Source of the DNA: Haploplasma axanthum | GTDB taxonomy: Bacteria > Bacillota_I > Bacilli_A > Acholeplasmatales > Acholeplasmataceae | Reading direction: 5' to 3' | Length of the DNA stretch: 64,000 bases | Assembly (NCBI RefSeq): GCF_900660745.1 | Contig: NZ_LR215048.1 | Span: 992,001 to 1,056,000 of the forward strand | In this document: piece after piece, positions 8,724 to 64,000 of the stretch | Layout: every line of letters begins with the position of its first letter | Numbering within the stretch: position 1 is the stretch's first letter | Program-made: the position numbers and the translations under genes | Notes under the pieces: generated by a model | Database searches by the model: none | Told to the model about the DNA's origin: nothing | Seen by the model: only the letters and a program-made list of their open reading frames with translations

Positions 8724-8752
8724 TTGATAAAATATACACTATATGTTAGAAT
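8724..8752 (+). promoter_or_regulatory. Promoter of the fluoride-responsive transcript
   Basis: A -35 box TTGATA (8724-8729), 17-bp spacer and -10 box TAGAAT (8747-8752) lie immediately upstream of the riboswitch. Confidence 0.7.
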
Positions 8753-8818
8753 TTATATGGGAATGATGTTCTCCCTTGGATTAACCAAAACCGCACGAAA
8801 ATTGCTGATGACGTCTAC
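8753..8818 (+). ncRNA. Fluoride riboswitch (crcB motif)
   Basis: The segment shows the crcB/fluoride aptamer signature: GGGAATGATGTTCTCCC near 8759-8775, an AACC...ACCGC joining region, then GCTGATGACGTCTAC (8804-8818). The pseudoknotted aptamer binds Mg2+-coordinated fluoride. It lies between a good promoter and an intrinsic terminator (8814-8848) and precedes a cation/proton antiporter, one of the gene classes known under this riboswitch. The 3' end of the aptamer overlaps the terminator's 5' arm, so fluoride binding should prevent termination and allow expression. Confidence 0.88.
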
Positions 8819-8848
8819 GCTTATTTTGCGTAGTATGTCTTTTTTTTA
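8812..8848 (+). terminator. Riboswitch-controlled intrinsic terminator
   Basis: A GACGTCTACGC arm pairs with GCGTAGTATGTC, followed by eight T residues. The 5' arm is shared with the fluoride aptamer's 3' end. Confidence 0.8.
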
Positions 8849-8890: not shown

Positions 8891-10087
8891 ATGATTCAAA
8901 GTCTTGGACTTATCTTTTTATGTGGCTTACTATTAGGATCTTTATTTAAGAAACTAAAACTCCCTAGTTTAATTGGTATGCTTATTAGTGGTATTGTTAT
9001 TGGACCATATGTTTTAAATTTACTTGATGATAGTATTTTACTAATTGGACCTGATTTAAGAGAATTAGCTTTAATTATTATTTTAACAAGAGCAGGATTA
9101 TCTCTTGATATTGAAGATTTAAAAGTAATTGGAAGACCAGCAGTTTTAATGAGTTTTGTTCCAGCATTGTTTGAAATAGCTGCAACTATTATTTTTGCAC
9201 CATTACTTTTAAATATCACATATATGGAAGCAGCACTCCTTGGTGCTGTGATTGCATCAGCATCACCAGCTGTTATTGTTCCTAGAATGATTAAGCTTAT
9301 GGATGAGGGATATGGTACAAATAGACGTATTCCTCAAATGATTTTAGCAGGTGATTCGGTTGATGATGTGTTTAATATTGTTATTTTTACAATGTTATTA
9401 AGTTTTCATACAACTGGAACAACAAATGCATTACAGTTAGCAAGTGTACCAATTTCAATTATACTGGGTGTGATAGTTGGTATTGTATCGGGGTTTATAT
9501 TATCTATAGTATTTAATAAAATACATATGCATGATTCATATAAAGTGATTATGGTGTTAGGTATTGCTTTTTTAATGGTTTCGTTAGAAAAAGTACTAGA
9601 AGGTCTTGTTCCAATCAGTGGTTTACTTGCTGTTATGGTTCAAGGTATTGTCATTTTTAAGAAACAAAAGGTTGTAGCTGATAGACTTTCAGCAAAGTTT
9701 AATAAACTGTGGACAGGCGCTGAAATCATTCTATTTGTTATGGTAGGAGCAACAGTAAATATTGGTTTTGCAACTAATTACTTATGGCAATCAATCTTAT
9801 TACTGATCATTATTATTTCAATTAGAGCAATTGGTATTTTAGCAACACTTATTGAAACTAATCTAAACGGGAAAGAACGATTCTTTTGTACATTAACAGG
9901 TATTCCAAAAGCAACCGTTCAAGCAGCAATAGGAGGAATACCACTTGCTATGGGACTACAAAGTGGTAATGTCATTTTATCAGTTGCTGTCATTGCTATT
10001 TTAGTTACAGCACCACTTGGAGCATTATTGATTGACTCTACGTACAAAAAAACATTAAAATCTGATAAGTATATTGAAAAAATTTAA
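8891..10087 (+). CDS. CPA-type cation/proton antiporter under fluoride control
   Basis: 398 residues, ATG 8891 after GGAGGTATTAT. The chain is almost entirely membrane helices (about 11-13). Features typical of the CPA1/NhaP Na+/H+ exchanger fold are LPSLIGMLISGIVIGPYVL in the first helices, SASPAVIVPRM in the middle, and DSVDDVFNIVIF, which carries the paired acidic residues of the ion-binding site. The exchanger is in the cytoplasmic membrane. Its position under a fluoride riboswitch suggests it protects against fluoride, either by exporting the anion's counter-ion or by correcting pH and sodium during fluoride stress. Such antiporters recur under this riboswitch, but the transported ion is inference. 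No crcB or EriC gene lies in the window. Confidence 0.88.
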   Translation: MIQSLGLIFLCGLLLGSLFKKLKLPSLIGMLISGIVIGPYVLNLLDDSILLIGPDLRELALIIILTRAGLSLDIEDLKVIGRPAVLMSFVPALFEIAATIIFAPLLLNITYMEAALLGAVIASASPAVIVPRMIKLMDEGYGTNRRIPQMILAGDSVDDVFNIVIFTMLLSFHTTGTTNALQLASVPISIILGVIVGIVSGFILSIVFNKIHMHDSYKVIMVLGIAFLMVSLEKVLEGLVPISGLLAVMVQGIVIFKKQKVVADRLSAKFNKLWTGAEIILFVMVGATVNIGFATNYLWQSILLLIIIISIRAIGILATLIETNLNGKERFFCTLTGIPKATVQAAIGGIPLAMGLQSGNVILSVAVIAILVTAPLGALLIDSTYKKTLKSDKYIEKI

Positions 10088-50074: not shown

Positions 50075-50095
50075 AACAAAAAAGAGGTGTTAAAA

Positions 50096-52393
50096 GTGAA
50101 AAAATTTAATCAAAATATAATTCAAAATATTTATGTACTACTTTTAATTACAGTACTAACACTATTCTTTTTTATATTTATAAGAAAATCAATTAATGAA
50201 GATGCTAGAATAATGGCACAAAATAATAATAATGGCGTAGCAACACTACTTAATAAGACTTTTGAAACAGATTACGAGTTATTTGTAAACAATGGCTTTA
50301 AAAATGAAAATATTTTTGATTTAACAGAACAAAATCTAATTATAGATGTAGATACTTTAAAACAATGGCAAATTACATCGTTAGATAAAATAATAAGTAA
50401 TTCAGATGATTCTTTGAAAAAAGTTGTTTTCTATAAAGAAAATCAATTAGGAGTGAAGCTAATAAATGAATATGAATATCTATTTAACGATAATAGCAAT
50501 ATAGACTATTTAATAATTGATCAACAAGGAATAATAAAATATAGCACAAATAATAAATATCAAGGTAAGATTCAAAATAATATAAAACCTGTAAGATGGT
50601 TAGATGATAATTTAAGTAGAAATAGTTACTCAAGTATTAAGTCTAATGATATGTTTATTAGTTACATGAAAATAGATAACGGTTTTATATTATTTCAATT
50701 AGCTAATTCAAGAGTATTTATTAATCAAAACCAAAATCTAGTTTATGCAATTATCATATTTATGTTTTTGATGATATTCATTGTTGTAACATACTATTTG
50801 ATATTAAAAAAGAATTTTAATGAACGAGTGAAGAAATTAGACCAATTAGTATTTTCAAAATATGATTACTTTTATATTGCTGTTCTAAATTTAAAAGGTA
50901 AAATAATAAGAACTAATACAATGTTTAAAGATGAGTTCTTAAAAGATAAAAAATTTGAAACAATATTTGAATTAGATAAATTTAATATTAAAGATTCAAA
51001 TGATTTAAAAGATAATAGCAAAATTTATTTTAGATTAAATAATAAAAGATTTAGTTTTAAAATTTTTAGAAAAGAAAATACATATTCAGTAGTTGGAGAA
51101 GTATATAACGAACAACTAGAAAAGTATCAAAAGCTTGCTTATTCAAATTCGATAAGTGGTGTTGGTAATTTATTTGCCTTTACTGAATATGTTAATAATA
51201 CTAAAAATGATAAGGAATCTACTTATGTTATAGTTGATATTAAAGATTTTAACAAAATAATGCAATTTAAAGGTTATTCAGCATCTGTAAAAATTATTAA
51301 AAAAATAACTGATATTTTTGATCAAAATAAAAAAGAAGGTATAAAACTTTTTCATGTTAAAATTGATACTTTTATTTTAGTTATTGATGGACATATTGAT
51401 GAGAGATGGGTTACAAGAAGAATCAAGAAATATGAAAGTATAAGTTTGAATGAAAATGAAACAGTAATGCTTGAATATAAAACCGGAATTGTTCATTCTA
51501 CTTATGTAGTTGGAAGTGATGGAGAAAAAATATATGATACATTATTAATCACATTGACTCGTGCTAAAAAATCATCAATATACGATATTATTACTTATGA
51601 TGATAACTTGAAATTATTTTTAACTAATCGTGAAATAATGTTAAAAGATTTGAATAATGCACTGGTAAATGATGAATTCATTATCTTTCTTCAACCTAAA
51701 TTAGATTTAAGAGATAAAAGAATCAAATCTTTTGAAGCTCTACTAAGATGGAATAATCCAAAATATTTAAAAAGATCACCTGAAGAATATATAACATTAG
51801 CCGAAGAGAGTGATTTAATAGTAAAAATTGGAGATATAGTTATTGAAAAAACTTTTGAAATCTTAAAGGATTATAAGAATAAAAATATTAATATCGCTAT
51901 AAACATATCACCTAAGCAAATAATTGAACAAGGGTTTGTTAATAAACTCATCCTTGCAGCAAGAAAAAATGAGATTGAACCTTCACAAATTTCAATTGAA
52001 GTTACTGAAACAATTTTAGTAGAAACATTTGATATAGTTATTGAAAAAATAAAAAGCCTAAAGAAAGCTGGATTTAGTATCCATTTAGATGATTTTGGTA
52101 CAGGGTATAGTTCTCTTAAGTACTTAAAAGATTTGCCAATTGATGTTATAAAGATTGATAAACAGTTTATTAAAGATATGAGTGATGATCTTAAATCTGA
52201 AGCAATTGTTAAAACTATGATACAATTAACTCATGAATTAGGTTTAACAGTTGTTGCTGAAGGTATTGAAAATAAGCAAGAATTAGAAAAATTAAAAATT
52301 CTTGGATGTGATTATATTCAAGGTTATTTAATAAGTAAACCGGTAATTGCTAAAGAAGCATTATTGAAATACAATAAAACAATTAAGTTTTAG
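50096..52393 (+). CDS. Membrane-bound GGDEF(degenerate)-EAL phosphodiesterase
   Basis: 765 residues; GTG 50096 is favoured by AGAGGTG 6 bp upstream. Residues ~1-30 and ~215-240 are membrane helices flanking an extracytoplasmic sensor domain. A GGDEF domain (residues ~365-510) has lost its catalytic loop. The EAL domain (~525-765) is complete: SFEALLRWNN, INISPKQ, EVTETI, HLDDFGTGYSSLKYLKD, VIKIDKQFI, VVAEGIE and QGYLISKP. It is predicted to hydrolyse c-di-GMP to pGpG in response to an outside signal. It precedes a second, degenerate EAL gene and, beyond an IS, a c-di-GMP riboswitch. Confidence 0.9.
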   Translation: MKKFNQNIIQNIYVLLLITVLTLFFFIFIRKSINEDARIMAQNNNNGVATLLNKTFETDYELFVNNGFKNENIFDLTEQNLIIDVDTLKQWQITSLDKIISNSDDSLKKVVFYKENQLGVKLINEYEYLFNDNSNIDYLIIDQQGIIKYSTNNKYQGKIQNNIKPVRWLDDNLSRNSYSSIKSNDMFISYMKIDNGFILFQLANSRVFINQNQNLVYAIIIFMFLMIFIVVTYYLILKKNFNERVKKLDQLVFSKYDYFYIAVLNLKGKIIRTNTMFKDEFLKDKKFETIFELDKFNIKDSNDLKDNSKIYFRLNNKRFSFKIFRKENTYSVVGEVYNEQLEKYQKLAYSNSISGVGNLFAFTEYVNNTKNDKESTYVIVDIKDFNKIMQFKGYSASVKIIKKITDIFDQNKKEGIKLFHVKIDTFILVIDGHIDERWVTRRIKKYESISLNENETVMLEYKTGIVHSTYVVGSDGEKIYDTLLITLTRAKKSSIYDIITYDDNLKLFLTNREIMLKDLNNALVNDEFIIFLQPKLDLRDKRIKSFEALLRWNNPKYLKRSPEEYITLAEESDLIVKIGDIVIEKTFEILKDYKNKNINIAINISPKQIIEQGFVNKLILAARKNEIEPSQISIEVTETILVETFDIVIEKIKSLKKAGFSIHLDDFGTGYSSLKYLKDLPIDVIKIDKQFIKDMSDDLKSEAIVKTMIQLTHELGLTVVAEGIENKQELEKLKILGCDYIQGYLISKPVIAKEALLKYNKTIKF

Positions 52394-52403
52394 GGGGAAT
52401 AAT

Positions 52404-53792
52404 ATGCCAGAATTAATCCAAGTTATTGCAATAGCACTAGCAACAATCTTAATGATTTTTTTGAGTTTTATTTTTGTGAAATTACTCAAGAAAGAAAAAG
52501 ATAAAGAAATTGAAGATAGGATAATTTTTAGTAATGAATCATTAGATTATGAAATTTTCATGAAACTAATTAATCGAAAAGTTTATGAAAATAAAGGTCA
52601 AAATTTCTTTACTATTTTTTGGATTAATATTAATCGTTTCTTTGTAGTTGAAGAAACATATAATAAAGAAGATGTTGAAAATATAATTAAACAAATTCAT
52701 TATCATTTGAAGGAAATTCTTCCAAAAACAGCTAAAATTGCTTATGGTAAATATCCTGGTACTATACTTGTATATCTACCAAAAATTTATCAAGAAAATG
52801 AAACGAATATATTAGCTAAAAAAATAAAAAGCACTGCGGAATTAAAAATTAAAGTTTTTGAAGATATTTATTTTGAAACATCGGCAACAATAGCGTATGT
52901 TAAATACCCACTTAATGGGCAAACTAGTGAAAGACTAATTGAGAGTTTAAGTATGGCGGCATATTTAAGTGAAAAACTTGGTGGCACTGGAATAACAGGC
53001 TATAGCAATGAAATGGAAAAAGACCGAAAATTCCTTGATTTCTATTTTGAAGTTAAAAGAGCAATCCAAAGAAAAGAATTTACATTGTATTATCAGCCGA
53101 TTATAGATGTTAAAAATAGTGAAATATACGGATATGAATCACTTGTTAGATGGAATCATCCTGATAAGGGAACTTTATCACCAAAAGAGTTTATGCCTCT
53201 AATGGAACAATCAGGTGATATCAATTGGATTAGTATATGGGGGTTAGAAACAGTGATTAAAACTAATTTCGATCTTAAAACAGAAATCCCTAACAACTAT
53301 TCATGGCATATAAATATTAGTCATCGTCAGTTATTAAATAATAAATTAGTTAATGAATATCAAAATACAATTACTAAATATCGAATAGAAGCGCGTAAAA
53401 TAGTTTTAGAGATTGCAGATTTTCAAGATATGTTTGAACATGAAGATGCATTAAGAACAATTCTTAAATTAAAAAATATTGGTTTTAGAATTGCAGTATC
53501 TGTTGATAAGGTAGATTATCAAATGCTTACTAAAATTGAACAATATAAGATTGATATGATTAAACTTAATGTTAAAATGCTTAAAGATGATTATGTTACA
53601 ACTCAAAAATATGTTGAGGTAATATCAGAATTAACAAATAAAAATAATATGAAAGTTATTATTGAATCAGTTGAAGAAAAAATTGATGAAGATCAAATCA
53701 ATAAGTACAAATTTAGATATGGACAAGGTTTTTATTATTCAAAACCACTTAAAAAAGATGAAATTAGCACTTTTTCGTTAAAAAATAAGTAA
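52404..53792 (+). CDS. Degenerate EAL-domain protein, probable c-di-GMP receptor
   Basis: 462 residues, ATG 52404 after GGGGGAA, 10 bp downstream of the phosphodiesterase gene. One N-terminal membrane helix (VIAIALATILMIFLSFIFV) is followed by a divergent GGDEF-like domain. The EAL-like domain (~230-460) keeps ESLVRWNHP and QGFYYSKPL, but the DDFGTGY loop is replaced by VSVDKVDYQM and the catalytic Lys context by IKLNVKM. It should not hydrolyse c-di-GMP and may bind it or the partner enzyme. The 27-bp target duplication of an IS1202-like element begins one base inside its stop region. Confidence 0.75.
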   Translation: MPELIQVIAIALATILMIFLSFIFVKLLKKEKDKEIEDRIIFSNESLDYEIFMKLINRKVYENKGQNFFTIFWININRFFVVEETYNKEDVENIIKQIHYHLKEILPKTAKIAYGKYPGTILVYLPKIYQENETNILAKKIKSTAELKIKVFEDIYFETSATIAYVKYPLNGQTSERLIESLSMAAYLSEKLGGTGITGYSNEMEKDRKFLDFYFEVKRAIQRKEFTLYYQPIIDVKNSEIYGYESLVRWNHPDKGTLSPKEFMPLMEQSGDINWISIWGLETVIKTNFDLKTEIPNNYSWHINISHRQLLNNKLVNEYQNTITKYRIEARKIVLEIADFQDMFEHEDALRTILKLKNIGFRIAVSVDKVDYQMLTKIEQYKIDMIKLNVKMLKDDYVTTQKYVEVISELTNKNNMKVIIESVEEKIDEDQINKYKFRYGQGFYYSKPLKKDEISTFSLKNK

Positions 53793-53817: not shown

Positions 53818-55347
53818 TGTCAATATCTTTTGAAAATGTCCTAAAAAAATAAGATCATTAACGTGATTTATACATTGCTCTTTCTATCATCCGATTATAA
53901 GAATCACTTTTCCATGGATGACTATTAGGGACAGTGTATTTTTTCTTTTCTTTTTCAACACCAAGATCGAAATCTTTAGAATGACTTTCGTGAGATTCTA
54001 ATTCAATTAATTTATAGTAATCACTGTTAATTAAACAATATAATTTATTATCAAATGATTTGATAACTATAGCTTTTGTACGATGTTTAAAGTTCATTAA
54101 GTTACCATTTTTATTATAGGCTTGGAAATACTTGTTTTGATACTTTAAAGCAGAGCCACGGTCAAATACACGGCTAGATATAACAGCTAAAATTAAGTTT
54201 AAATCAGTATCACTATTAATCTTTTCGTAAACTTGTGGTATATTATCATTAATGAGAGAGAATTGTTTATTAAACTTATCAAGATATGATTGTAGGAACT
54301 CATTTGCTTGAACGATGGTCTTAATATTATTAATTCGTAACTCATTTATTAATCTGGATTGTAACGTTCCAAATAAACGTTCAATTCGCCCCTTAGCTTG
54401 AGGAATAGAAGTAACATTTAAAGTTATGCCCAGCTGCTCGCAGGCATAACCAAATTGTGTTAATGTACTATACTCGGGCTTAGGGTTTTTTAATGATTTA
54501 TAGTCGAAGATTGTTCTTCTGTCAGTTAGAAACTCATTAGGTATCCCATGATTCTCTAATGTTTGCTTTAAAACGTTGTAATAGCCAATTAGAGTCTCTT
54601 GATGATCAAAATATGCACCAACTAACATTCCTGTAGCATCGTCTATTGCTGCATGAAGATGAGTTTTTTTATCTCCAAACCATAAATGTTCTGATGCGTC
54701 CATTTGTAATAACTCGCCACCATATTTTTTTCTTGGAAGTCTTGCGTGATTATCTTTAGGATCTAAAATGTTATTATCAATGATAAGATTCTTTTCTTGA
54801 ATAGATAAGGATTCGTTTAAATCTATTTTTGTTTGAATTCTATCACGGTATTTCCTCTTAGTAATTCTTTCAGCTTTTGGTGATAAAATAAGATTTTCAT
54901 CTAAGAGATTGTATAGAGAATTATATGATATTTTAATTTTCTCATTTTCCAGAAGCATTTCTTTAAAATGTTTAAAGTTGAAATTGTAGTATTTATTATT
55001 ATATAAATTTAAAATTTTATTTTTGATTTCAACTTTAATTATAAGGTGAGGAGACTTCTTTCTATTACCATGAATAAAACCTTCCTTACCTTGTTCATTA
55101 TATTTGATAATTAATCTATTAACTTGTCTAAGTGATATACCTAGTTTATTAGCAGCATTAAGTTTATTACCGTTATTTGTTACTAAGTTTTTTATTGTTT
55201 CATACTTCATTTGTTCCATTGGTTTTAGTTCTACCTTTCTCATTAAGTACCTCCATTATATTAAGTACTTAATATTGTATTATAGTTTCTAATGTTTGGG
55301 ACATTATTAAAAGATACTACTTAAGACATTATCATAAGATAACCACA
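53818..55347 (-). mobile_element. IS1202-type insertion sequence, 1530 bp
   Basis: Bounded by imperfect terminal inverted repeats: TGTCAATATCTTTTGA at the left, and at the right the complement reading TGTGGTTATCTTATGA, matching 21 of 27 positions. It is flanked by a perfect 27-bp target duplication. It contains one transposase gene on the minus strand. The duplication length and transposase match the IS1202 group (formerly ISNCY). The right-hand duplication abuts the -35 box of the riboswitch promoter, so the promoter is intact but its upstream context has been replaced. Confidence 0.92.
53858..55243 (-). CDS. IS1202-group DDE transposase
   Basis: 461 residues, ATG at 55243 after GGAGGTACTTA. 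N-terminal HTH (ATIKxLVTNNGNKLNAANKLGISLRQVNRL-type arrangement, residues ~14-40) precedes the DDE core: LLQMDASEHLWFGD (first Asp), EFLTDRRTIFDY (second Asp), QAKGRIERLFGTLQSRL (Glu). Length and motifs match the group sometimes labelled ISNCY. The frame is intact, so the element may be active. The recent-looking perfect target duplication supports a young insertion. Confidence 0.9.
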   Translation of the reverse strand: MRKVELKPMEQMKYETIKNLVTNNGNKLNAANKLGISLRQVNRLIIKYNEQGKEGFIHGNRKKSPHLIIKVEIKNKILNLYNNKYYNFNFKHFKEMLLENEKIKISYNSLYNLLDENLILSPKAERITKRKYRDRIQTKIDLNESLSIQEKNLIIDNNILDPKDNHARLPRKKYGGELLQMDASEHLWFGDKKTHLHAAIDDATGMLVGAYFDHQETLIGYYNVLKQTLENHGIPNEFLTDRRTIFDYKSLKNPKPEYSTLTQFGYACEQLGITLNVTSIPQAKGRIERLFGTLQSRLINELRINNIKTIVQANEFLQSYLDKFNKQFSLINDNIPQVYEKINSDTDLNLILAVISSRVFDRGSALKYQNKYFQAYNKNGNLMNFKHRTKAIVIKSFDNKLYCLINSDYYKLIELESHESHSKDFDLGVEKEKKKYTVPNSHPWKSDSYNRMIERAMYKSR

Positions 55348-55374: not shown

Positions 55375-55403
55375 TTGACAAATATAAAACTGTTTGATAA
55401 AAT
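55375..55403 (+). promoter_or_regulatory. Promoter of the c-di-GMP-controlled operon
   Basis: TTGACA (55375-55380), 17-bp spacer, TAAAAT (55398-55403). A near-consensus promoter immediately upstream of the riboswitch. Confidence 0.8.
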
Positions 55404-55419
55404 ATATGAGCATCGAAAG

Positions 55420-55495
55420 AATGTAAAAGGCAAACCAAGGGTAACCTTGGGACGCAAAGCTATAGGGTCCTAAAATTGGATAGCCAGTTGTCATT
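55420..55495 (+). ncRNA. c-di-GMP-I riboswitch (GEMM-I)
   Basis: The aptamer signature is clear. GGCAAACC (55429-55436) leads into P2, CCAAGG-GTAA-CCTTGG with a GNRA tetraloop (55435-55450), then GACGCAAAGC (55451-55460), then the second arm with CCTAAA...GGATAGCC, which contains the tetraloop receptor. P1 is formed by AATG (55420-55423) with CATT (55492-55495) and neighbouring bases. The P1 3' strand (AGCCAGTTGTCAT) is also the 5' arm of the terminator, so ligand binding and termination should be mutually exclusive. This predicts an on-switch by c-di-GMP. Confidence 0.93.
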
Positions 55496-55514
55496 ATGAC
55501 AATTGGCTTTTTTT
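55482..55514 (+). terminator. Riboswitch expression platform (intrinsic terminator)
   Basis: AGCCAGTTGTCAT pairs with ATGACAATTGGCT, followed by seven T residues. The 5' arm overlaps the P1 3' strand of the c-di-GMP aptamer, so termination should occur when c-di-GMP is low. Confidence 0.88.
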
Positions 55515-55536
55515 GTCAATTTAGGAGGTGATTTGG

Positions 55537-56244
55537 ATGCGGTTATCTGAAATATGGAATAAAAAAGGAACTAAAAAACTCAGTTTATTAAAAGTATTAG
55601 CACCTGTTGCGTTACTAACATTTACAATTGTATTTCTAACATTTTATGGTGTTAATACTGGTAATTTCTCAATTGGAGTAAGTAGTAATGCTTATGATAG
55701 AAATATTTCGATTTCAATCACTCCAGACTCAAATGAAAACAAAAAAACAATTTACGTTAATTCTAGAAACTTGTTACCAATTAATTTGTTAACAGTCGAG
55801 TCACAACTTGATGAAATAACAACAACAGATGGTGAATACAAAGGTAAGTACTCAAGAAATATTGTTGCATATAGTTTTTATATTAAAAATGAATCATCAA
55901 GTTTATCGTTTGATCTTGCTTATTCAATTCTACTAAGAGATATAAAAAAATATCAAGATGAGATTAGGTATATAAAAATTATGGTGATTAGCGATGATGA
56001 GAAAACAATATACCAAAGTAGCTTGAGTGAAAAGAAATATCAAGATGATTATAGTTATTATGATTTTGATGAAAATGCTAAAGAAATTGTTGTTGGAAAG
56101 CCTAAAATAATTAGTGCGAGATCAGAAAGAAAATATACAATTTTGTTTTGGTATGATGGCGATGAGATGGTAAATGCTAACATTAATAAAAATGATATTC
56201 TTGAAAGTTTAAAGTTTCAAATAAACTTTGAAATAGTGGATTAA
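55537..56244 (+). CDS. Exported single-pass protein, first gene of the surface operon
   Basis: 235 residues, ATG 55537 after TTAGGAGGTGATTTGG, just past the riboswitch terminator. A cytosolic stub (RLSEIWNKKGTKKLSLLK) precedes one membrane helix (VLAPVALLTFTIVFLTFYGV); the rest is outside, mostly beta (NISISITPDSNENKKTIYVN, NIVAYSFYIKNESSSLSFD, SERKYTILFWYDGDE). It does not have the AxAW-type cleavage site of its neighbours, so it may stay membrane-anchored. Functionally it could be a minor or base subunit of the surface structure. Homologues are often annotated only as hypothetical. Confidence 0.65.
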   Translation: MRLSEIWNKKGTKKLSLLKVLAPVALLTFTIVFLTFYGVNTGNFSIGVSSNAYDRNISISITPDSNENKKTIYVNSRNLLPINLLTVESQLDEITTTDGEYKGKYSRNIVAYSFYIKNESSSLSFDLAYSILLRDIKKYQDEIRYIKIMVISDDEKTIYQSSLSEKKYQDDYSYYDFDENAKEIVVGKPKIISARSERKYTILFWYDGDEMVNANINKNDILESLKFQINFEIVD

Positions 56245-56248
56245 AACT

Positions 56249-57151
56249 ATGAAGAAAATAAGAATATTGACTTTAACATTAATTATCACATTGTTTACAT
56301 TCTCAGTTGGTGCAGTAGCGTGGCTACAGATTAGTAACATTAATATTGTTGAAGGAATTAACTTGAATGCTGGTAGTGGTGATTTACTTGATATATCACT
56401 TGATGGAATTAACTATGCAAAAAGATTAGATGAAACATTGATTAAAGAAAAGTTAAGAAGATTAAGATTCTCAGATGTAACAACAACTGACGGAATAAAC
56501 TTCTTTCAAGGTCCTAACAATGAAACAAGAATAGCAAGACCTAATATTGATTACTTAACATTTGATATCTGGTTTAGAGTTACTCTAGAAGATAATACAA
56601 ATGAAAATGAAGTCTTTGATAAAATATTTTTAACTAATCGAAAAGAAGTAAAATACGATGAAACAAATAATGTTAAAGGAACTTATGTAACATCGGAAGG
56701 AAAAAGTTGGAAAGCAGATTTAGAATTCAATGATGGAAATAAGATCATAAAAAAAGGCGAAACCAACAATTATTATGCAAAAGATGCAATAAGAATTGGA
56801 TTTGCTAGTGATGAAAATCAATTTATTTATGATATTAGTGAAAATGAAGAACGTGGTTTTGGAATGGAGTTTGGAGCATTTGATTACTATAATCAAAAAA
56901 ATCCTTTAAATAAATTAAAAGTTCCAGAAAAAAAACCAGAAACAATCTATGAACTTTCAAAAGAAAGTGGAGCAGTAGGTTTTATGAATAATGATAATTC
57001 CCTAATAGTTTCACTAAAGAAAGAGGACAAACATTATTATGGTAAAGCTAAATTAAATATTTGGCTTGAAGGATGGGATCCAGATAGTATTGAAGCAATA
57101 CTAAACGATCACATATTAATTCAGCTAGAATTTATAGCTGCAAAATTATAA
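56249..57151 (+). CDS. SipW-dependent surface protein, TasA/camelysin-like
   Basis: 300 residues, ATG 56249, 4 bp after the previous stop. Signal peptide IRILTLTLIITLFTFSVGAV with the AVAW-type cleavage region typical of substrates of ER-type signal peptidases. The mature part is beta-rich (YLTFDIWFRVTLED, SWKADLEFNDGNKIIKKG). Its C-terminus LNIWLEGWDPDSIEAILN matches the end of the next gene's product (IEGWDGEAFNAILG), so they are paralogous domains. TasA-like proteins assemble into extracellular fibres. This one is likely a fibre or matrix subunit. Confidence 0.8.
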   Translation: MKKIRILTLTLIITLFTFSVGAVAWLQISNINIVEGINLNAGSGDLLDISLDGINYAKRLDETLIKEKLRRLRFSDVTTTDGINFFQGPNNETRIARPNIDYLTFDIWFRVTLEDNTNENEVFDKIFLTNRKEVKYDETNNVKGTYVTSEGKSWKADLEFNDGNKIIKKGETNNYYAKDAIRIGFASDENQFIYDISENEERGFGMEFGAFDYYNQKNPLNKLKVPEKKPETIYELSKESGAVGFMNNDNSLIVSLKKEDKHYYGKAKLNIWLEGWDPDSIEAILNDHILIQLEFIAAKL

Positions 57152-57162
57152 AAGTTATTTAG

Positions 57163-57176
57163 TCAGCATATGCTGA
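57163..57176 (+). promoter_or_regulatory. Palindrome between surface-protein genes
   Basis: TCAGCATATGCTGA is a perfect 14-bp palindrome without a T-run, 25 bp upstream of the next start. It could be an RNA-processing or stabilising hairpin, or a protein-binding site. Confidence 0.4.
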
Positions 57177-57200
57177 AAATGTAAAAAGGAGAAAAAGAAA

Positions 57201-58076
57201 ATGAAATTTACAAAGAAAATGGTTTTATCAGTATTAACATTAGTTATTACAGTGTTTGCATTAGGTACTGGGGTATTTGCATGGTTTACAATCAACAATA
57301 CAACTAGTGTCTCAGATTTAAGTGGAACAGTACAATCAGGTACAGGTGGATTTTTAATTTCAACTAATGGAGAAGATTGGAATACAGCTCTTGATTTAAG
57401 TGGTATTACAGTTAAAGGTGATAGTTTTACTGACTTAACATCTGAAGATGGAAAAACATTTAAAAGTCTAAATAATGATTCAGTGGCAACTGGATATATT
57501 GAATTTGACTTACATTTCTTAATTGGTACTACATTTAATAGAATTAATTTATCAGATTTAACAGTATCAAGTGAAGAAACATCATGGAAATCAGATGTAG
57601 AAGTTACACTTGATAAAAAATACAATGTTGGTGATGCAATAAAAAATTATGCTTCAAATGCTGCAAGAATTTCAATTGAAAATCAAAAAAATGATGTTAC
57701 TGTTTTTGAACAAAGTCAAACTGCTGTTGGAAATACAAGTGGTGTAGCAACTGAAACAAATAACTATGCATTTATTTATTATAATGCTTTAGCTACAAAG
57801 ACTGGTAAAACAGCACTTAATTTTGCTAATGCATCAGCTTTAACAACTGATGGTCATGCAAGAGTTGGAGAAGAAGCATTTACTTCTATAGAAATTAGTG
57901 ATGCAATTGAAGTGCCATCAACTATTACTGTAAAGGAAGAAGATACTAAGGCAGGTTACACAAAATATGCTAAGATTACAGTTCGTGTTTGGATTGAAGG
58001 TTGGGATGGAGAAGCATTCAATGCAATCTTAGGTGGTAAGTTAAATCTTAACTTTACATTCACTGCTGCTGAATAA
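57201..58076 (+). CDS. TasA/camelysin-like major surface protein
   Basis: 291 residues, ATG 57201 after AAAAAGGAGAAAAAG. Signal peptide FTKKMVLSVLTLVITVFALG, then GVFAWFTINN, the cleavage-region motif shared with the other exported proteins. The mature protein is rich in Thr, Ser, Asn and Ala and beta-forming, with few aromatics, as in secreted fibre subunits (e.g. VSDLSGTVQSGTGGFLISTN, EIDLHFLIGTT-like segment). The C-terminus RVWIEGWDGEAFNAILG repeats the motif of the upstream paralogue. Position, strong ribosome-binding site and a following stabilising hairpin suggest it is the most abundant product of the operon. Confidence 0.82.
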   Translation: MKFTKKMVLSVLTLVITVFALGTGVFAWFTINNTTSVSDLSGTVQSGTGGFLISTNGEDWNTALDLSGITVKGDSFTDLTSEDGKTFKSLNNDSVATGYIEFDLHFLIGTTFNRINLSDLTVSSEETSWKSDVEVTLDKKYNVGDAIKNYASNAARISIENQKNDVTVFEQSQTAVGNTSGVATETNNYAFIYYNALATKTGKTALNFANASALTTDGHARVGEEAFTSIEISDAIEVPSTITVKEEDTKAGYTKYAKITVRVWIEGWDGEAFNAILGGKLNLNFTFTAAE

Positions 58077-58093
58077 GTTTTAAGATAATTTTC

Positions 58094-58144
58094 TTTGAGT
58101 ATATATAATGAGGAAGCCTTAAATGGCTTCCCATTAAACTCAAA
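58094..58144 (+). promoter_or_regulatory. Two-tier hairpin between the major surface gene and sipW
   Basis: Inner stem GGAAGCC-TTAAAT-GGCTTCC (58112-58131) and outer stem TTTGAGT/ACTCAAA (58094-58100 with 58138-58144). No T-run, so it is probably an mRNA stabiliser or partial terminator that keeps downstream expression lower than the major subunit. Confidence 0.55.
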
Positions 58145-58176: not shown

Positions 58177-58842
58177 ATGAAAGAGAATAAAAAATCAAAC
58201 GGAAGCAAGATTATATCAGTTATAGGAAATGTTATATTTTATACATTTATTTTGGTTTTATTACTTTTTTCAATAGTCAATTTGAGTGCGAAAAAGGAAG
58301 ATGATGTACCAACATTGTTTGGTAGAGGATTTGTTACAGTACTTAGTGATTCGATGAACGGAGATAAGAAAGATTCGTTTAAAGAAGGAGCGTTAGTATT
58401 TGTAAAAGATCTAAATGATGATGATAAAAAGAATTTAAAAGTTGGAGATGTTGTTGTTTTTTGGGGACAATTATCGATTGATGATCCAAAATTACAAGCA
58501 CATATAATTCATAGAATTATTAAAATTGAAGGAAACAATATTACTACACAAGGTGATAGCCTAAGAAATGCAAATACTACAGAAACAAATGATATAAGTA
58601 GAATTAAAGCACTTGCGACTGGACATGTTGAAGGATTAGGAAAACCAATTAATTATTTAAGAACATCAACTGGTTTTGCATTATTTATTCTATTACCATT
58701 ATTTATATTATTAATTGTTCAAATTACAATTTTAGTTGTTAATGTTGTTAATAGAAATAAAGAAAGATTAAGAATTGATCATGAAGCTGAAAAAGCAAGA
58801 TTAAAAGAAGAAATTTTGAAAGAGTTAAAAGAGAAACAATAA
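58177..58842 (+). CDS. sipW: ER-type signal peptidase (SipW-like)
   Basis: 221 residues, ATG 58177 after AAGGAGTTACATAA. N-terminal helix (IISVIGNVIFYTFILVLLLF) and C-terminal helix (LFILLPLFILLIVQITILVV) flank the S26B catalytic domain. The nucleophile is Ser59 in VLSDSM; the general base is His112 in IIHRIIKI, in place of the Lys of ordinary bacterial signal peptidases; the GDS at 126-128 is the third conserved site. This Ser/His type (SipW of Bacillus) cleaves TasA-like proteins. It lies between the TasA-like genes and an AAA+ gene. Confidence 0.9.
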   Translation: MKENKKSNGSKIISVIGNVIFYTFILVLLLFSIVNLSAKKEDDVPTLFGRGFVTVLSDSMNGDKKDSFKEGALVFVKDLNDDDKKNLKVGDVVVFWGQLSIDDPKLQAHIIHRIIKIEGNNITTQGDSLRNANTTETNDISRIKALATGHVEGLGKPINYLRTSTGFALFILLPLFILLIVQITILVVNVVNRNKERLRIDHEAEKARLKEEILKELKEKQ

Positions 58843-58861: not shown

Positions 58862-60427
58862 ATGGGCAATTTTGCAAAATGGTATATAGATATTCTACAA
58901 AAAACAATGCAAGTAATAATTAGTTTTTTTGTAGGAATTGGTGAATTTATTGCAAATATATTTGTAAGATATCCTGTAAATTCATTCAATAGCTTCACAC
59001 TAGCAACTCGTGAATTTCAATTGCTGGATTGGGTAGCTGCAATTGTTGTTGTGAGTGTTAATATTGTCTTTTTAGTTATTATTCTTTTATTAGTATTTAG
59101 ACTATTAAAAAAATATATTAGATTTGTTAAAAGAGAGATTAATACTGATAATTTAATAGATGAAATTAGTGAGTTAAACAGAGCATTGATAGAAAGCACG
59201 AATGAAAAAAATACAATTTTAGCCCTTAAATCGGAAGACTTAGGGTTAGGTAGTGGTGTGGTATCAAATCGTGTTAAAAGTTCAAACTTATTAACTGAAA
59301 ATATTGATGGTACAGATGAAGAAAAGAATAAAAATGAAGATTCAAGATTTGTTAAATTACTTGATGTTGATGAAACATATGATTATGCTGTTTTACCAAC
59401 ACATATGTATGAAACAGATCGAATTAATTTAAATGAATTAGTTAACAGATTTATAAATTTCTCAGCATCGAAATTAAAACTATTTTATACACATAAAACA
59501 GTAACAACGTTTTTAGCTGGTATGGCTTCATCAAAGATTATTATTCTTGAAGGTATATCTGGAACTGGTAAAACATCATTACCGTATGCTTTTGGAAAAT
59601 TCTTTAATAATGATTCATCAATAATTTCCGTTCAACCATCTTGGCGTGATAGAACAGAAATTATAGGATACTTAAATGAATTTACGAAAAAGTATACTGA
59701 ACCAGATTTCTTGAAAGCTATTTATGAAACAACATACAGAACAGATGTTAATCTGATTATATTAGATGAAATGAACTTAGCTCGTGTTGAATATTATTTT
59801 GCGGATTTCTTATCAATAATGGAAATGCCAAAACCTGAAGAGTGGTTAATTGATATTGTTGGTGATAGTCAACCAGGAGATCCAATTAATCTTAAAAAAG
59901 GAAAAATGCTATTACCACAAAACGTCTGGTTTATAGGAACCGCTAATCGTGATGATTCAACATTTACAATTACCGATAAGGTATATGATAGAGCAGCATC
60001 AATTGAGATGAATGATAGAGCTAATTATATAGATGCACCAGATACAAATAATGTTCATATGAGTTATGAATATTTAGATGGTTTGTTCAAACAAGCTGTA
60101 ATTGATAATCCTATAACAACAAAAACACTTGAAAACCTAGAAAAACTTGATTTATTTATAACATCAAAATTCCAAATTACATTTGGTAATCGTATTATGA
60201 GACAAATAAAGAGTTTTATTCCCGTATATGTTGCTAGTGGTGAAAATGAAATTGATGGACTTGATTATATTGTTTCAAGAAAAGTAATCAGAAAATTTGA
60301 AACCCTAAATCTACCATTTTTAGTTAATGAATTAGATGAATTATTAAAAGAAATTGATAAACTATTCGGTAAAACTAAATTCAATGAAACACGTAAAATG
60401 ATTGAACAATTTAGAAAACAGGTATAG
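58862..60427 (+). CDS. Membrane-anchored McrB-type AAA+ ATPase
   Basis: 521 residues, ATG 58862 after GGTGGTGATTTAA. Residues 12-34 and 57-80 are membrane helices, followed by a basic, coiled-coil linker. The AAA+ domain has Walker A GISGTGKTS (231-239), Walker B NLIILDEMNLARVEY (about 297-311) with FADFLS, and FIGTANRDD (about 358-365). These last two resemble the McrB/AAA_5 family, whose sensor motif follows a conserved strand. Restriction McrB lacks membrane anchors, and the gene is inside a secretion operon rather than next to a DNA methyl-binding protein, so it probably remodels or drives an envelope process. The next gene encodes its likely partner. Confidence 0.85.
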   Translation: MGNFAKWYIDILQKTMQVIISFFVGIGEFIANIFVRYPVNSFNSFTLATREFQLLDWVAAIVVVSVNIVFLVIILLLVFRLLKKYIRFVKREINTDNLIDEISELNRALIESTNEKNTILALKSEDLGLGSGVVSNRVKSSNLLTENIDGTDEEKNKNEDSRFVKLLDVDETYDYAVLPTHMYETDRINLNELVNRFINFSASKLKLFYTHKTVTTFLAGMASSKIIILEGISGTGKTSLPYAFGKFFNNDSSIISVQPSWRDRTEIIGYLNEFTKKYTEPDFLKAIYETTYRTDVNLIILDEMNLARVEYYFADFLSIMEMPKPEEWLIDIVGDSQPGDPINLKKGKMLLPQNVWFIGTANRDDSTFTITDKVYDRAASIEMNDRANYIDAPDTNNVHMSYEYLDGLFKQAVIDNPITTKTLENLEKLDLFITSKFQITFGNRIMRQIKSFIPVYVASGENEIDGLDYIVSRKVIRKFETLNLPFLVNELDELLKEIDKLFGKTKFNETRKMIEQFRKQV

Positions 60428-60431
60428 ATTA

Positions 60432-62174
60432 ATGAAAAGAAGATATGATCTAAAACTATTTTATGATATGGTCATAAATGAAATTGATAATGCTGAATTA
60501 GAAACAGATTTTCCATTTTATTTTTATCAAGCTTTTGATAAAGGTGAAAAACTTGTTTCACAAACATTAGTAACAGAGATCAAAAAGTTTGATGAAACAT
60601 GGATTAAAACTGTTGAATCATATTTCCCAAGTATTGATAAAATAACGAAAAATTTAAAATCAAATTTAAAATATGAAGAAGAAATAAGAATTATTGAAAA
60701 AGCTAAAAAAACTGGTAGTAAATCAATTCAACATTTAGCAGCAAATACACATCTTATTAAAGAAGTTAAACCAAATATTATTCCTAAAAAGATTTTAGTC
60801 GATAATTCGGAAATTGATTATGCAATCTATGAAAACAGATTTGTGATGACTTTAATTGAACGTTTATCAGATTTTGTATATCAACGACTTAATATTATTA
60901 AACAAAATATTGAAGCAAGTCAAACAGTTAAAATGAACATTGATAGTAAATTTATGTTTGGTGATGAAGAATATAAGATTAATCTTGATTTGAATAAAAC
61001 CGAAAAAGTGTCAAAAAAGTCTGAAATGGAAGCAAACCTTCAACTATATAAACGAGTTGAATATTTATATCGACAAATAACAAATCTTAAAAAAGGGCAG
61101 TTTATGAGTATTTTAAAAAATGCTAAAAAAGTAACTGCACCAATACTTAAAACCCAAATTATTCTTAAGAATACTGATTATCGTAATGCATATAATTTAT
61201 GGATTTTCCTTGATCAATATTCATCACTTGGATTTGAATTAGAAACAAAAACTTCGAATAAAAAGTTTACACAAAGTTATAAAAAACATTTAACTCAAAA
61301 CGTTTTATTGTTATTTGCAACTACGCTATTTCATGAAAAACAAACGCTAAATAGTGATTATACAAAAGGTAATAGAAGAAAGTTTAAATCGTATTTGACA
61401 AAGGTAAGCAATCTTGATGTTGTAAAAGATCCAAGAAGCTTTTCAAATGAGCATCAAGAAATGAATGAATACTATTTAAATCAAATGAAAATAATTTTTA
61501 AAACGCAAATCGATAAGTATAGTAGTGAAGGTAAAAATAAACGTATTTCATTAAAAAATGCAATTAATGATACTTTGAAAATTGTAAATTCAATTTATTC
61601 ATCATACTTAGGAATTAATAGTGAAAACGAAGTTTTTGATCAATTAATAAAACCAGATAGAAAAAAAGTTATGCTAGATGAATCAATGGAAAAATATAAA
61701 CTTGTTAAAGCACTTAGAGAAGCAAAAGAAAAAGATTTGCGAGAAACATATGAATTAGAACTTAGATGGCAAAAAATAGTTGAAGAAAAATCTAATGATT
61801 TACATCTTGAAAATCTTGAATTAAGTAAGAAAAAAATAACTAAAAAACTTGAAAAAGAAGTAAATGACTTTAAGAAATATAAAGAAAAAAGAATTGATCA
61901 AACTAAAAAAATTAAGGAACAAGCAATTAGAAAACATAAAGATGAGTTAAAAGATTTTGAAGAAAAACTTAAATTCAAATATCAAAAGCAACAAGAGAAA
62001 ATAAAAAAAGTTGAACAAGAAAAACTGTTAAAAATTAAAGAGAAGCTTAAAAAAGAAAAAATGAAATTAAAACTTCAAGAACAAAAAAAGCTTGCAAAAG
62101 AAAAAGACAAACAAGCAACAATTAATGAAAGAAAAAAAATGAAGTTAGAAGAAAAATATAACCCTAAAGGATAG
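60432..62174 (+). CDS. DUF2357-like protein with long C-terminal coiled coil
   Basis: 580 residues from ATG 60432, 4 bp after the AAA+ stop (a TTG at 60402 in frame is less likely). The middle has IDYAIYENRFVMTLIERLSD (about 128-147), the YExRF pattern of DUF2357, a family that often accompanies McrB-type ATPases and resembles the N-terminal part of McrC. Unlike McrC I see no PD-(D/E)XK nuclease. From about residue 415 the chain is a Lys/Glu-rich coiled coil of over 150 residues. It is likely cytosolic or peripherally attached and partners the upstream AAA+ protein. Confidence 0.7.
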   Translation: MKRRYDLKLFYDMVINEIDNAELETDFPFYFYQAFDKGEKLVSQTLVTEIKKFDETWIKTVESYFPSIDKITKNLKSNLKYEEEIRIIEKAKKTGSKSIQHLAANTHLIKEVKPNIIPKKILVDNSEIDYAIYENRFVMTLIERLSDFVYQRLNIIKQNIEASQTVKMNIDSKFMFGDEEYKINLDLNKTEKVSKKSEMEANLQLYKRVEYLYRQITNLKKGQFMSILKNAKKVTAPILKTQIILKNTDYRNAYNLWIFLDQYSSLGFELETKTSNKKFTQSYKKHLTQNVLLLFATTLFHEKQTLNSDYTKGNRRKFKSYLTKVSNLDVVKDPRSFSNEHQEMNEYYLNQMKIIFKTQIDKYSSEGKNKRISLKNAINDTLKIVNSIYSSYLGINSENEVFDQLIKPDRKKVMLDESMEKYKLVKALREAKEKDLRETYELELRWQKIVEEKSNDLHLENLELSKKKITKKLEKEVNDFKKYKEKRIDQTKKIKEQAIRKHKDELKDFEEKLKFKYQKQQEKIKKVEQEKLLKIKEKLKKEKMKLKLQEQKKLAKEKDKQATINERKKMKLEEKYNPKG

Positions 62175-62182
62175 TGGTTAAA

Positions 62183-62758
62183 ATGAAAAAAATCTTAAGT
62201 TATATATTAAGTGCAATAACATTACTTATTTTAATAATATCAATTATCTTTGTTATTTTAAATATTAAAGGTGTGAAAGATAATACACCAATAAAAATCT
62301 TTGGTTACAGATATTCACTTGTGGTTTCTGATTCAATGAATCCAAGTATTCAAAAAGGTGACTATGTAATTTATGAAGAATTTGATGAATATAATCTTAA
62401 GGATGTAATAGTTTATCGAAGTAAAACTGATAATAAGTTGATAGTTCATGAAATAGTTGAGGAAACTTCGTTTGGATTTAAAACTAAAGGAAGTAATAAT
62501 AAAATAAATGATTTTAATTATGAAGGGTATATTACAAATGATCGTATTCTTGGAAAAGTGGTTAAAGTTACAGCTTTATTAGGCATTGGAAGATTATTTA
62601 CTTCCAATAAATCCATGGTTATTATGATTGTTGTTATAGTATCATTTGGAATTATTGTTTGGCAAATAGTTGATATTACGAAAGCTTTAAAAGAAAAAAC
62701 AAAAGAAAAATATCAAAAAGAATTAGAAGATTATAAGAAAGAATTGAACGATAAATAA
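62183..62758 (+). CDS. Second ER-type signal peptidase
   Basis: 191 residues from ATG 62183 (a GTG at 62174 is possible). N-terminal helix YILSAITLLILIISIIFVIL and C-terminal helix SMVIMIVVIVSFGIIVWQIV flank the S26B domain: Ser51 in VVSDSMNP and His89 in IVHEIVEE; KGSNNKIND is the third box, with Ser where Asp is usual. It ends in a Lys-rich coiled coil (LKEKTKEKYQKELEDYKKEL). It is paralogous to the upstream peptidase but divergent, so the two may process different subsets of the exported proteins. The next gene, 19 bp downstream, is another exported substrate. Confidence 0.87.
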   Translation: MKKILSYILSAITLLILIISIIFVILNIKGVKDNTPIKIFGYRYSLVVSDSMNPSIQKGDYVIYEEFDEYNLKDVIVYRSKTDNKLIVHEIVEETSFGFKTKGSNNKINDFNYEGYITNDRILGKVVKVTALLGIGRLFTSNKSMVIMIVVIVSFGIIVWQIVDITKALKEKTKEKYQKELEDYKKELNDK

Positions 62759-62777: not shown

Positions 62778-63482
62778 ATGCTAAAAAAATTATATATTTC
62801 AGTAGTAGTATTATTACTTGCAGTACTAAGTATGACTGTATCTGTCTTTGCTTGGTTTACTGAAGTAAAAAGTAGTTCAGAAGCAAACGGATTAAATGGT
62901 AAAATTGATCAAAATGTTCAGTTTGAATTTGATACTGATTATGATATGTTAATTGATACTACAAGATTTGAGGATTTAATTTATGTAACAAGAGAGGACC
63001 TTGCAAAAGGTACCCAAACAACATATAGTGGTTTATCAACAAATATAACAATAACAATCAAGAATAAAGATTTAGAAAAATTTAGAATTTACGTTGGAGC
63101 AAGTATTGCTGCATCACTTAATGCAGGTCCTTATACAGGTATTAGCAATGGTTTATTGTATTTGGTTTATAGTGAAGTTGATGTTGAAAATGCACTAAAT
63201 GCAAACAAAAATGTTGTGGATTACATAATGGAAAGAGAAATTTTTAATTTTGACAGAACAAATATGACGGATAGTCAATATGTTGATGCTGCTATTTCTA
63301 ATCTAAGATCAAGAAATGGAATATTAATTAGTGGAACTAAGACAGAAGAAACGATGTTTATTGCTGCTTGGGGTTACTATGATGGATTAAAAGGATATAC
63401 TTACAACAATGTGGAATTGCAAAAACTATATTATTCTCTAGTTTATCAAGTAACTTTCATGCTTCGTGGAGGGTTAGCATAA
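62778..63482 (+). CDS. SipW-dependent exported surface protein
   Basis: 234 residues, ATG 62778 after AAAAGGAGTGAAGACAG. Signal peptide KKLYISVVVLLLAVLSMTVS with the SVFAWFTEVKS cleavage region, matching GVFAWFTINN of the major subunit. The mature chain has Thr/Asn-rich beta segments (TTYSGLSTNITITIKNKDLE, VYQVTFMLRGGLA). It lacks the IEGWD ending of the two large paralogues, so it may be an accessory or capping subunit. It directly follows the second signal peptidase, its likely processing enzyme. Confidence 0.75.
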   Translation: MLKKLYISVVVLLLAVLSMTVSVFAWFTEVKSSSEANGLNGKIDQNVQFEFDTDYDMLIDTTRFEDLIYVTREDLAKGTQTTYSGLSTNITITIKNKDLEKFRIYVGASIAASLNAGPYTGISNGLLYLVYSEVDVENALNANKNVVDYIMEREIFNFDRTNMTDSQYVDAAISNLRSRNGILISGTKTEETMFIAAWGYYDGLKGYTYNNVELQKLYYSLVYQVTFMLRGGLA

Positions 63483-63483
63483 T

Positions 63484-64000
63484 ATGATAAAACTTAAAAA
63501 AATAGTAATATTATTATTAGTATTTGCTGCATCTATAGCAACATCAATAGGAGTATATGCATGGATTTCTGTTGGAGCTGAAAAAGAAGTTAGTGAACTA
63601 ATAACTGAACTTGATTCAACGAGAATTTTTGAAGCAAGTATGAATGTTAAAATAAATGACGAAGAAGTTAAATATTCTGATGTATCGCGTTATGATTCAG
63701 TTACACATATGTTTACATTTAATAATGTTGATGAATTAAGAGATGGTTTTAAAGTTAATGTTACAATTGAAGCTAAGAAACAGATTAAAGTCAGATTTAA
63801 AATTGTTGAAGAATGGCATAATAGTAATAATGAAATAATAGAAAATCCTCATTTACTAACATTTAATTCTAGTAATAGTGATTTATACAAAAAAGATAAT
63901 GAAAAATATATTTATTATACGCCAAGCATTGGTTTAGGAAAAATTGTTGAAGATATTGAGATTATTGATAGTGTTACATTTAGTAATACTAATGCAATTA
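63484..64000 (+). CDS. Exported surface protein, partial at right edge
   Basis: ATG 63484, one base after the previous stop, and open through 64000 (172 codons visible, no stop). Signal peptide KLKKIVILLLVFAASIATS with GVYAWISVGA at the cleavage region, the same pattern as its neighbours. The mature part begins EKEVSELITELDSTRIFEAS and is beta-rich (VTIEAKKQIKVRFKIVEEW). It is another substrate of the local signal peptidases; the operon continues beyond the window. Confidence 0.72.
   Translation, partial: MIKLKKIVILLLVFAASIATSIGVYAWISVGAEKEVSELITELDSTRIFEASMNVKINDEEVKYSDVSRYDSVTHMFTFNNVDELRDGFKVNVTIEAKKQIKVRFKIVEEWHNSNNEIIENPHLLTFNSSNSDLYKKDNEKYIYYTPSIGLGKIVEDIEIIDSVTFSNTNAI

Follow-up and report, generated by a model that had tools for sequence, protein, structure and literature searches.

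A c-di-GMP-I riboswitch predicted to turn on a TasA-like, CoCoPALM-containing surface operon in Haploplasma axanthum

Two riboswitch systems of the c-di-GMP-I class (c-di-GMP, cyclic dimeric guanosine monophosphate) from Bacillus thuringiensis, Bc2 (cap; PMC4933901) and the triple-tandem Bc3-5 (PMC4759541), have been found experimentally to be ON switches. For Bc4 a mechanism was proposed in which the terminator takes P1 and part of P3 together with the C of the binding site (PMC4759541), and in the c-GAMP switch pilM of Geobacter metallireducens, which is likewise experimentally ON, the terminator sequesters the ligand-pairing C (PMC9262584). Acholeplasma laidlawii encodes 14 GGDEF/EAL proteins (PMC2408644) and has been described as the one mollicute for which use of c-di-GMP is known (PMC11535214), and a named c-di-GMP output for this species was not found in the open-licence literature. 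Here we describe a c-di-GMP-I riboswitch of Haploplasma axanthum, whose genome is placed within the Acholeplasmataceae. It lies in a stretch of 64,000 nucleotides (contig NZ_LR215048.1, positions 992,001 to 1,056,000), hereafter the window, to which all coordinates refer; features are on the forward strand unless stated otherwise. We consider it highly likely that this element is a transcriptional ON platform controlling a TasA-like/CoCoPALM surface-fibre operon, of which reading we infer ligand binding, the direction in vivo and fibre formation. The riboswitch belongs to a known class and its ON platform is already known; what is new, as far as the open-licence literature shows, is the lineage, the TasA-like/CoCoPALM target and the family-wide extent of the regulon. 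Some of the family copies are presumably already listed in Rfam.

Aptamer, terminator and promoter

A covariance search (cmscan, Rfam) assigned the region 55419-55495 to the c-di-GMP-I (GEMM-I) aptamer RF01051 with 64.0 bits, well over the curated cut-off of 35 (E-value 3.2 × 10−10), and the match spans model positions 1-87, i.e., the complete model. It is the only RF01051 copy in the complete 1.88-Mb genome. The class had been called from sequence motifs in a first-pass annotation, and the covariance score upholds that call; the motifs it listed, GGCAAACC (55429), a GNRA-capped P2 and GACGCAAAGC, are all present, the loop being GUAA. P1 consists of only four base pairs, AAUG at 55420-55423 with CAUU at 55492-55495. 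P2 (CCAAGG-GUAA-CCUUGG, 55435-55450) pairs 55435-55440 with 55445-55450, and P3 (55458-55489) is built from a 5' strand at 55458-55469 and a 3' strand at 55479-55489. Full-length free-energy folding of the aptamer did not return the Rfam fold, as is to be expected of a folding model without tertiary contacts and the ligand.

To follow the element through the family, 128 riboswitch copies were examined, which are carried by 46 of 88 Acholeplasmataceae genomes in 11 genera. The core nucleotides of the ligand site are kept in H. axanthum: A47 (A55456) is invariant in the alignment, and position 20 (55429), a ligand contact, is G, as in 115 of the 117 parsed family copies (A in two). Position 92 (55491), which pairs with the second base of the ligand, is U and not C. 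The helices covary among 37 relatives with a score of 0.486 compared with 0.204 in shuffles, also beyond slid controls, and covariation is seen in P1, P2 (6/6 pairs) and P3. A P1 of at least 3 bp can be formed in 91% of 65 copies of the U92 type (13% with the letters shuffled), while the C92 type has no convincing P1 (18% versus 8%).

The aptamer runs directly into an intrinsic terminator at 55482-55514, with a stem of 12 bp (55482-55508), a 3-nt loop and a run of 6-7 U residues to 55514 (−16.3 kcal/mol). Its 5' arm is composed of the 3' strand of P3, position 92 and the 3' strand of P1, so that the strand 55482-55495 is common to aptamer and terminator, which is the anatomy of an ON-type platform of the Bc3-5 and pilM type. 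The first-pass annotation had recognized this terminator and the shared strand, and both folding and family-wide conservation agree with it, but it had taken the whole strand for P1. That assignment was ruled out: 55482-55489 is the 3' strand of P3, 55490-55491 is junction, and only 55492-55495 belongs to P1. Among the 127 family copies with enough flank for the comparison, the P3/P1 3' strand also serves as the 5' arm of a terminator in 105, compared with about 14% in shuffled flanks, and the overlap is therefore not due to chance. In 97 distinct terminators both partners of the pairs at positions 92-95 vary (at position 92, U-A 50 and C-G 17; at 93, C-G 56 and A-U 27; at 94, A-U 55, C-G 19 and U-A 14). 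As the aptamer helices and the terminator pairs both covary, both of the mutually exclusive folds are conserved.

Upstream of the aptamer lies a promoter, TTGACA-N17-TAAAAT with TG before the -10 box (55375-55403), which has 11 of 12 consensus matches and ranks first among 54 promoter-like sites of the region. In the proposed mechanism, RNA polymerase would start near 55410. When the ligand is absent, AGCCAGUUGUCAU (55482-55494) would leave P3/P1 and pair with AUGACAAUUGGCU, and the terminator would form immediately upstream of the first gene's ribosome-binding site. When c-di-GMP is bound, P3, position 92 and P1 would be held in the aptamer, the terminator would be excluded and the whole operon would be transcribed. 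Judged from the sequence, the RNA very probably senses c-di-GMP and the operon is very probably transcribed only when the ligand is bound.

The downstream operon and its products

The first-pass annotation had predicted a surface operon as the target, and conservation across the family strengthens this. An open reading frame (ORF) starting within 400 nt of the riboswitch has a SipW-type signal (63 copies) or the related pattern of the first gene product, Tas1 (51 copies), in 114 of 127 copies, and inspection adds about five to six of the other 13 to this kind (e.g., AYWAS, AFWAS), giving, by regular expression plus inspection, about 94% overall. The background of the signal pattern is one in 45 ORFs in window positions 1-46000. 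In H. axanthum the signals have AWF or AWL after the hydrophobic core and the operon itself contains SipW-like peptidases, as expected for SipW-processed export. The gene run conserved in the family comprises the EAL genes EAL1 and EAL2, the riboswitch or riboswitches, Tas1, Tas2, Tas3, a SipW-like peptidase, an McrB-like GTPase, a DUF2357 protein and a second peptidase, and often continues with a second riboswitch and then Tas4-like genes. A second target in the family is formed by genes near the GAPDH gene, which encode ..AFAYWQD.. proteins.

Tas1 (55537-56244) is an exported protein with an FYG..TG motif after a hydrophobic segment. Its ORF had been listed from GTG 55528, and the start was corrected to the in-frame ATG 55537, downstream of AGGAGG (55523-55528). 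It is followed by Tas2 (56249-57151; SipW-type signal ..AVAWLQIS) and Tas3 (57201-58076; ..GVFAWFT). The first SipW-like signal peptidase (58177-58842) has its best match to NF046067 SipW, with an E-value of 3.5 × 10−15 but under the cut-off of that model, and the second (62174-62758) matches TIGR02228 with 73.7 bits, over its cut-off. Between them lie the McrB-like GTPase (58862-60427), which has an NxDD motif, and a protein with the McrC N-terminal domain (DUF2357; PF09823, 36.2 bits) and a charged helical tail (60402-62174), in which a nuclease domain was not found. Tas4 (62778-63482; ..SVFAWFT) precedes the last gene of the run, which begins at 63484, passes the window end at 64000 and continues to 65610. 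Its product (L041 9484-11610) combines a SipW-type signal with a CBM5/12 chitin/cellulose-binding module at the C terminus, and is a possible chitin/cellulose adhesin.

The GTPase carries ANRDD or ANKDD in 10 of 10 aligned sequences, a motif (NxD followed by D/E) that distinguishes the NxD branch among McrB relatives. By visual inspection its N terminus has a membrane segment and coiled coil of the CoCoPALM type. Together with the DUF2357 partner and signal peptidases on both sides, the set agrees with the published account of CoCoPALM systems (PMC11090510). Of 80 loci found in named genomes with the GTPase profile, 53 also contain the riboswitch, without exception on the same strand, and many of the other 27 have short upstream contigs. 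The matches include A. oculi, A. granularum, Peloplasma aerotolerans and MO-XQ; scanning the named genomes with Tas3 as a single protein gave no relatives, while the GTPase profile did find loci. CoCoPALM systems appear to be tied to TasA-like proteins and c-di-GMP. The arrangement of GTPase, DUF2357 protein and two peptidases is kept through the family and also occurs in Anaeroplasma, Izemoplasma-type and gut Bacilli genomes.

The exported proteins had been described as TasA/camelysin-like. They have SipW-type signals and, for Tas3, a possibly pilus/TasA-like beta fold in the predicted model, but none of Tas1-Tas3 or Tas4 matched the TasA/camelysin family (Pfam PF12389), nor did any protein of the genome at an E-value of 0.01. 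The Tas3 model, a beta-sandwich computed from 50 sequences, had a predicted local distance difference test score (pLDDT) of 77 and a predicted template modelling score of 0.76; it replaced an earlier model from 14 sequences (pLDDT 56) that gave no useful match. Its best structural matches were pilus and fibre subunits, FimA with a Z-score of 6.7 and the TasA fibre 8aur with 5.3 over 136 residues, a range that the tool regards as inconclusive, and Foldseek returned nothing for this model at an E-value of at most 0.001. Because the Tas3 fold, the class of signal peptide and the presence of dedicated peptidases point the same way, surface fibres or fibre-like adhesins are the likeliest products, although their identity as TasA fibres is not proven. 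A possible but less likely alternative is that the riboswitch is real and ON while the products are secreted adhesins, an envelope layer or a defence or secretion device driven by the McrB-like GTPase. The lack of any TasA/camelysin sequence match in the genome would fit this, as would the carbohydrate-binding module of the last gene and the McrBC relatives, which in the passages covered are mostly restriction systems (PMC11090510). It accounts less well for several SipW-signal proteins encoded together with SipW-like peptidases and for a Tas3 model closest, if inconclusively, to FimA and the TasA fibre.

Ligand, upstream region and direction of switching

The riboswitch co-occurs with GGDEF proteins in the family. 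These proteins occur in 46 of 46 riboswitch genomes, and the riboswitch is absent from 29 of 29 GGDEF-free genomes, most of which are small and from a single genus (probably phytoplasmas). The H. axanthum genome has ten GGDEF matches, seven of them over the cut-off, and five EAL matches. Its cyclases with a readable signature have the canonical IND..GH..GD and GGDEF, and c-di-GMP rather than cyclic GMP-AMP (cGAMP) is therefore expected. A PAS-GGDEF cyclase (65764-67323) directly follows the operon, and such a cyclase lies at the corresponding locus in two other genera. PilZ proteins were not found in the H. axanthum genome at an E-value of 0.1, and no c-di-GMP-II riboswitch was found in a search that had no positive control.

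The U at position 92 bears on specificity. It is found in about 60% of the parsed copies (U 71, C 45, A 1), including that of H. axanthum, while the A. laidlawii group, the copies inside the operon and the majority of the other sampled Bacilli have C92. G20 and C92 are known to be less conserved than A47 (PMC9049102); the G20A/C92U mutant binds cyclic di-AMP and G20A binds cGAMP (PMC7288161), and natural cGAMP switches carry A at position 20 (PMC9481103). We take U92 as a natural variant, probably with lowered ligand affinity. A cGAMP-type switch with A20 is unlikely, as G20 is kept. Two family copies, L059 (G086:C65:9034-9108) and L107 (G087:C1:1535523-1535597), do have A at position 20, the base tied to cGAMP sensing. 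It is improbable that the U92 variant senses another cyclic dinucleotide, such as 3',3'-cGAMP through pairing of U92 with adenine, or has relaxed specificity: U92 is widespread and single-base changes at positions 20 and 92 shift specificity, but nearly all parsed copies keep the G that natural cGAMP switches lack, the readable cyclases of H. axanthum have the GD residue that is usual in diguanylate cyclases, and C92 copies are found within this family at the same operon position (A. laidlawii).

Upstream of the promoter lies an insertion sequence (IS) of 1.5 kb (53818-55347; transposase 53858-55243 on the reverse strand), which has TGT..ACA ends, an unusually long target duplication of 27-28 bp and four near-identical copies in the genome. 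It separates the promoter from EAL1 (50087-52393), a phosphodiesterase with intact EAL motifs and a degenerate GGDEF domain, and EAL2 (52404-53792), a degenerate EAL protein (ESL, DDFGTG lost) that is probably a sensor or inactive. The two EAL proteins reported upstream by the first-pass annotation are thus present and are conserved neighbours, but the second is degenerate and the IS separates both from the switch. The target duplication shows that the end of EAL2 originally lay about 28 bp upstream of the -35 box, as is the case in relatives. A promoter borne by the IS was ruled out, since the element ends with its target duplication at about 55347 and the promoter lies beyond; from these junctions we conclude that the promoter is native and intact.

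Several points weigh against an ON switch governed by c-di-GMP. U92 should weaken pairing with the second guanine of the ligand, P1 is short, and both ligand binding and transcriptional direction are deduced from the sequence and from analogy. Furthermore, functional class I copies of Clostridioides difficile are OFF switches (PMC6366702), so direction is not automatically transferable; their platform differs from that of H. axanthum. Of the ON logic annotated earlier, the mutual exclusion of aptamer and terminator stands and is conserved family-wide, while the direction is argued from anatomy and precedents. The single occurrence in the genome and the nearby IS might suggest an OFF switch, or a copy that has decayed and no longer switches. 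Either is highly improbable given the perfect 12-bp terminator, the near-consensus promoter spared by the IS, the strong covariance score and the family-wide conservation; nor was a separate anti-terminator segment, which an OFF switch would need, seen at this locus.

Arrays in the family and comparison with described systems

Within the listed riboswitch hits of the family, copies are single at 84 places and occur as pairs at 11, as triples at six and once as a run of four. A near-consensus promoter (at least 10 of 12 matches) precedes 74 of 102 first copies and only 3 of 26 follower copies, which indicates that several complete aptamer-terminator units in a row are transcribed from a single promoter. 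The run of four complete c-di-GMP-I units (L053, G024:C2:259425-259876) exceeds the 2022 survey of tandem riboswitches, which for this class has triplets at most (347 doublets and 12 triplets; PMC9481103). Riboswitch arrays as such are not new, and with a triplet of this class the response becomes more digital (PMC4759541). A second, operon-internal riboswitch of the C92 type lies before Tas4 in the A. laidlawii group (L019, L047, L065, L088, L098). In these copies the ribosome-binding site and start codon directly follow the aptamer and no terminator is adjacent, which suggests translational control.

Taken together, the regulon would supply the lineage with a c-di-GMP output that is family-wide and has a clear mechanism, and would connect CoCoPALM, a branch of McrBC that is still uncharacterised, with surface proteins induced by c-di-GMP; both the regulon and this link are directly testable in the culturable A. 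laidlawii, A. oculi and A. granularum. We give roughly even chances to the broader view that, in the Acholeplasma lineage as well as in neighbouring wall-less groups, the main route of c-di-GMP action is by riboswitches that turn on one conserved surface-fibre system, and that the CoCoPALM GTPase/DUF2357 pair builds or exports the fibres instead of serving restriction. If so, thresholds would differ between the U92 and C92 versions and with the number of units in an array, from one to four. Elsewhere in the window, a fluoride riboswitch (RF01734, 45.5 bits; 8750-8824) precedes a predicted membrane protein of the cation/proton-antiporter type (8891-10087).

Compared with described systems, the operon shares SipW-class signals, SipW-like peptidases and beta-sandwich exported proteins with the TasA-SipW operon of Bacillus subtilis, from which it differs in that its proteins have no Pfam TasA/camelysin match. 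The tapA-sipW-tasA operon of B. subtilis is controlled by SinR/Spo0A and is not known to be under a riboswitch. With CoCoPALM systems it has in common the NxD(D) GTPase motif, the membrane/coiled-coil fusion, the DUF2357 partner and the signal peptidase neighbours, while TasA-like subunits and c-di-GMP control are unmentioned in the covered passages of that description (PMC11090510). Like the ON switch pilM (PMC9262584), the H. axanthum element has mutually exclusive aptamer and terminator folds, with the ligand-pairing base taken up by the terminator, and is probably ON; pilM senses c-GAMP, whereas the H. axanthum RNA has the G20 typical of c-di-GMP. There is also a likeness with B. thuringiensis: Bc2 and Bc3-5 have the same aptamer class, the same terminator overlap was proposed for Bc4, Bc2 targets a surface adhesin, akin to the surface operon, and Bc3-5 consists of tandem complete units as in the relatives of H. 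axanthum, which reach four. In contrast to these switches, that of H. axanthum precedes a multi-gene TasA-like/McrBC-like operon in a relative of the Mollicutes and has U at position 92.

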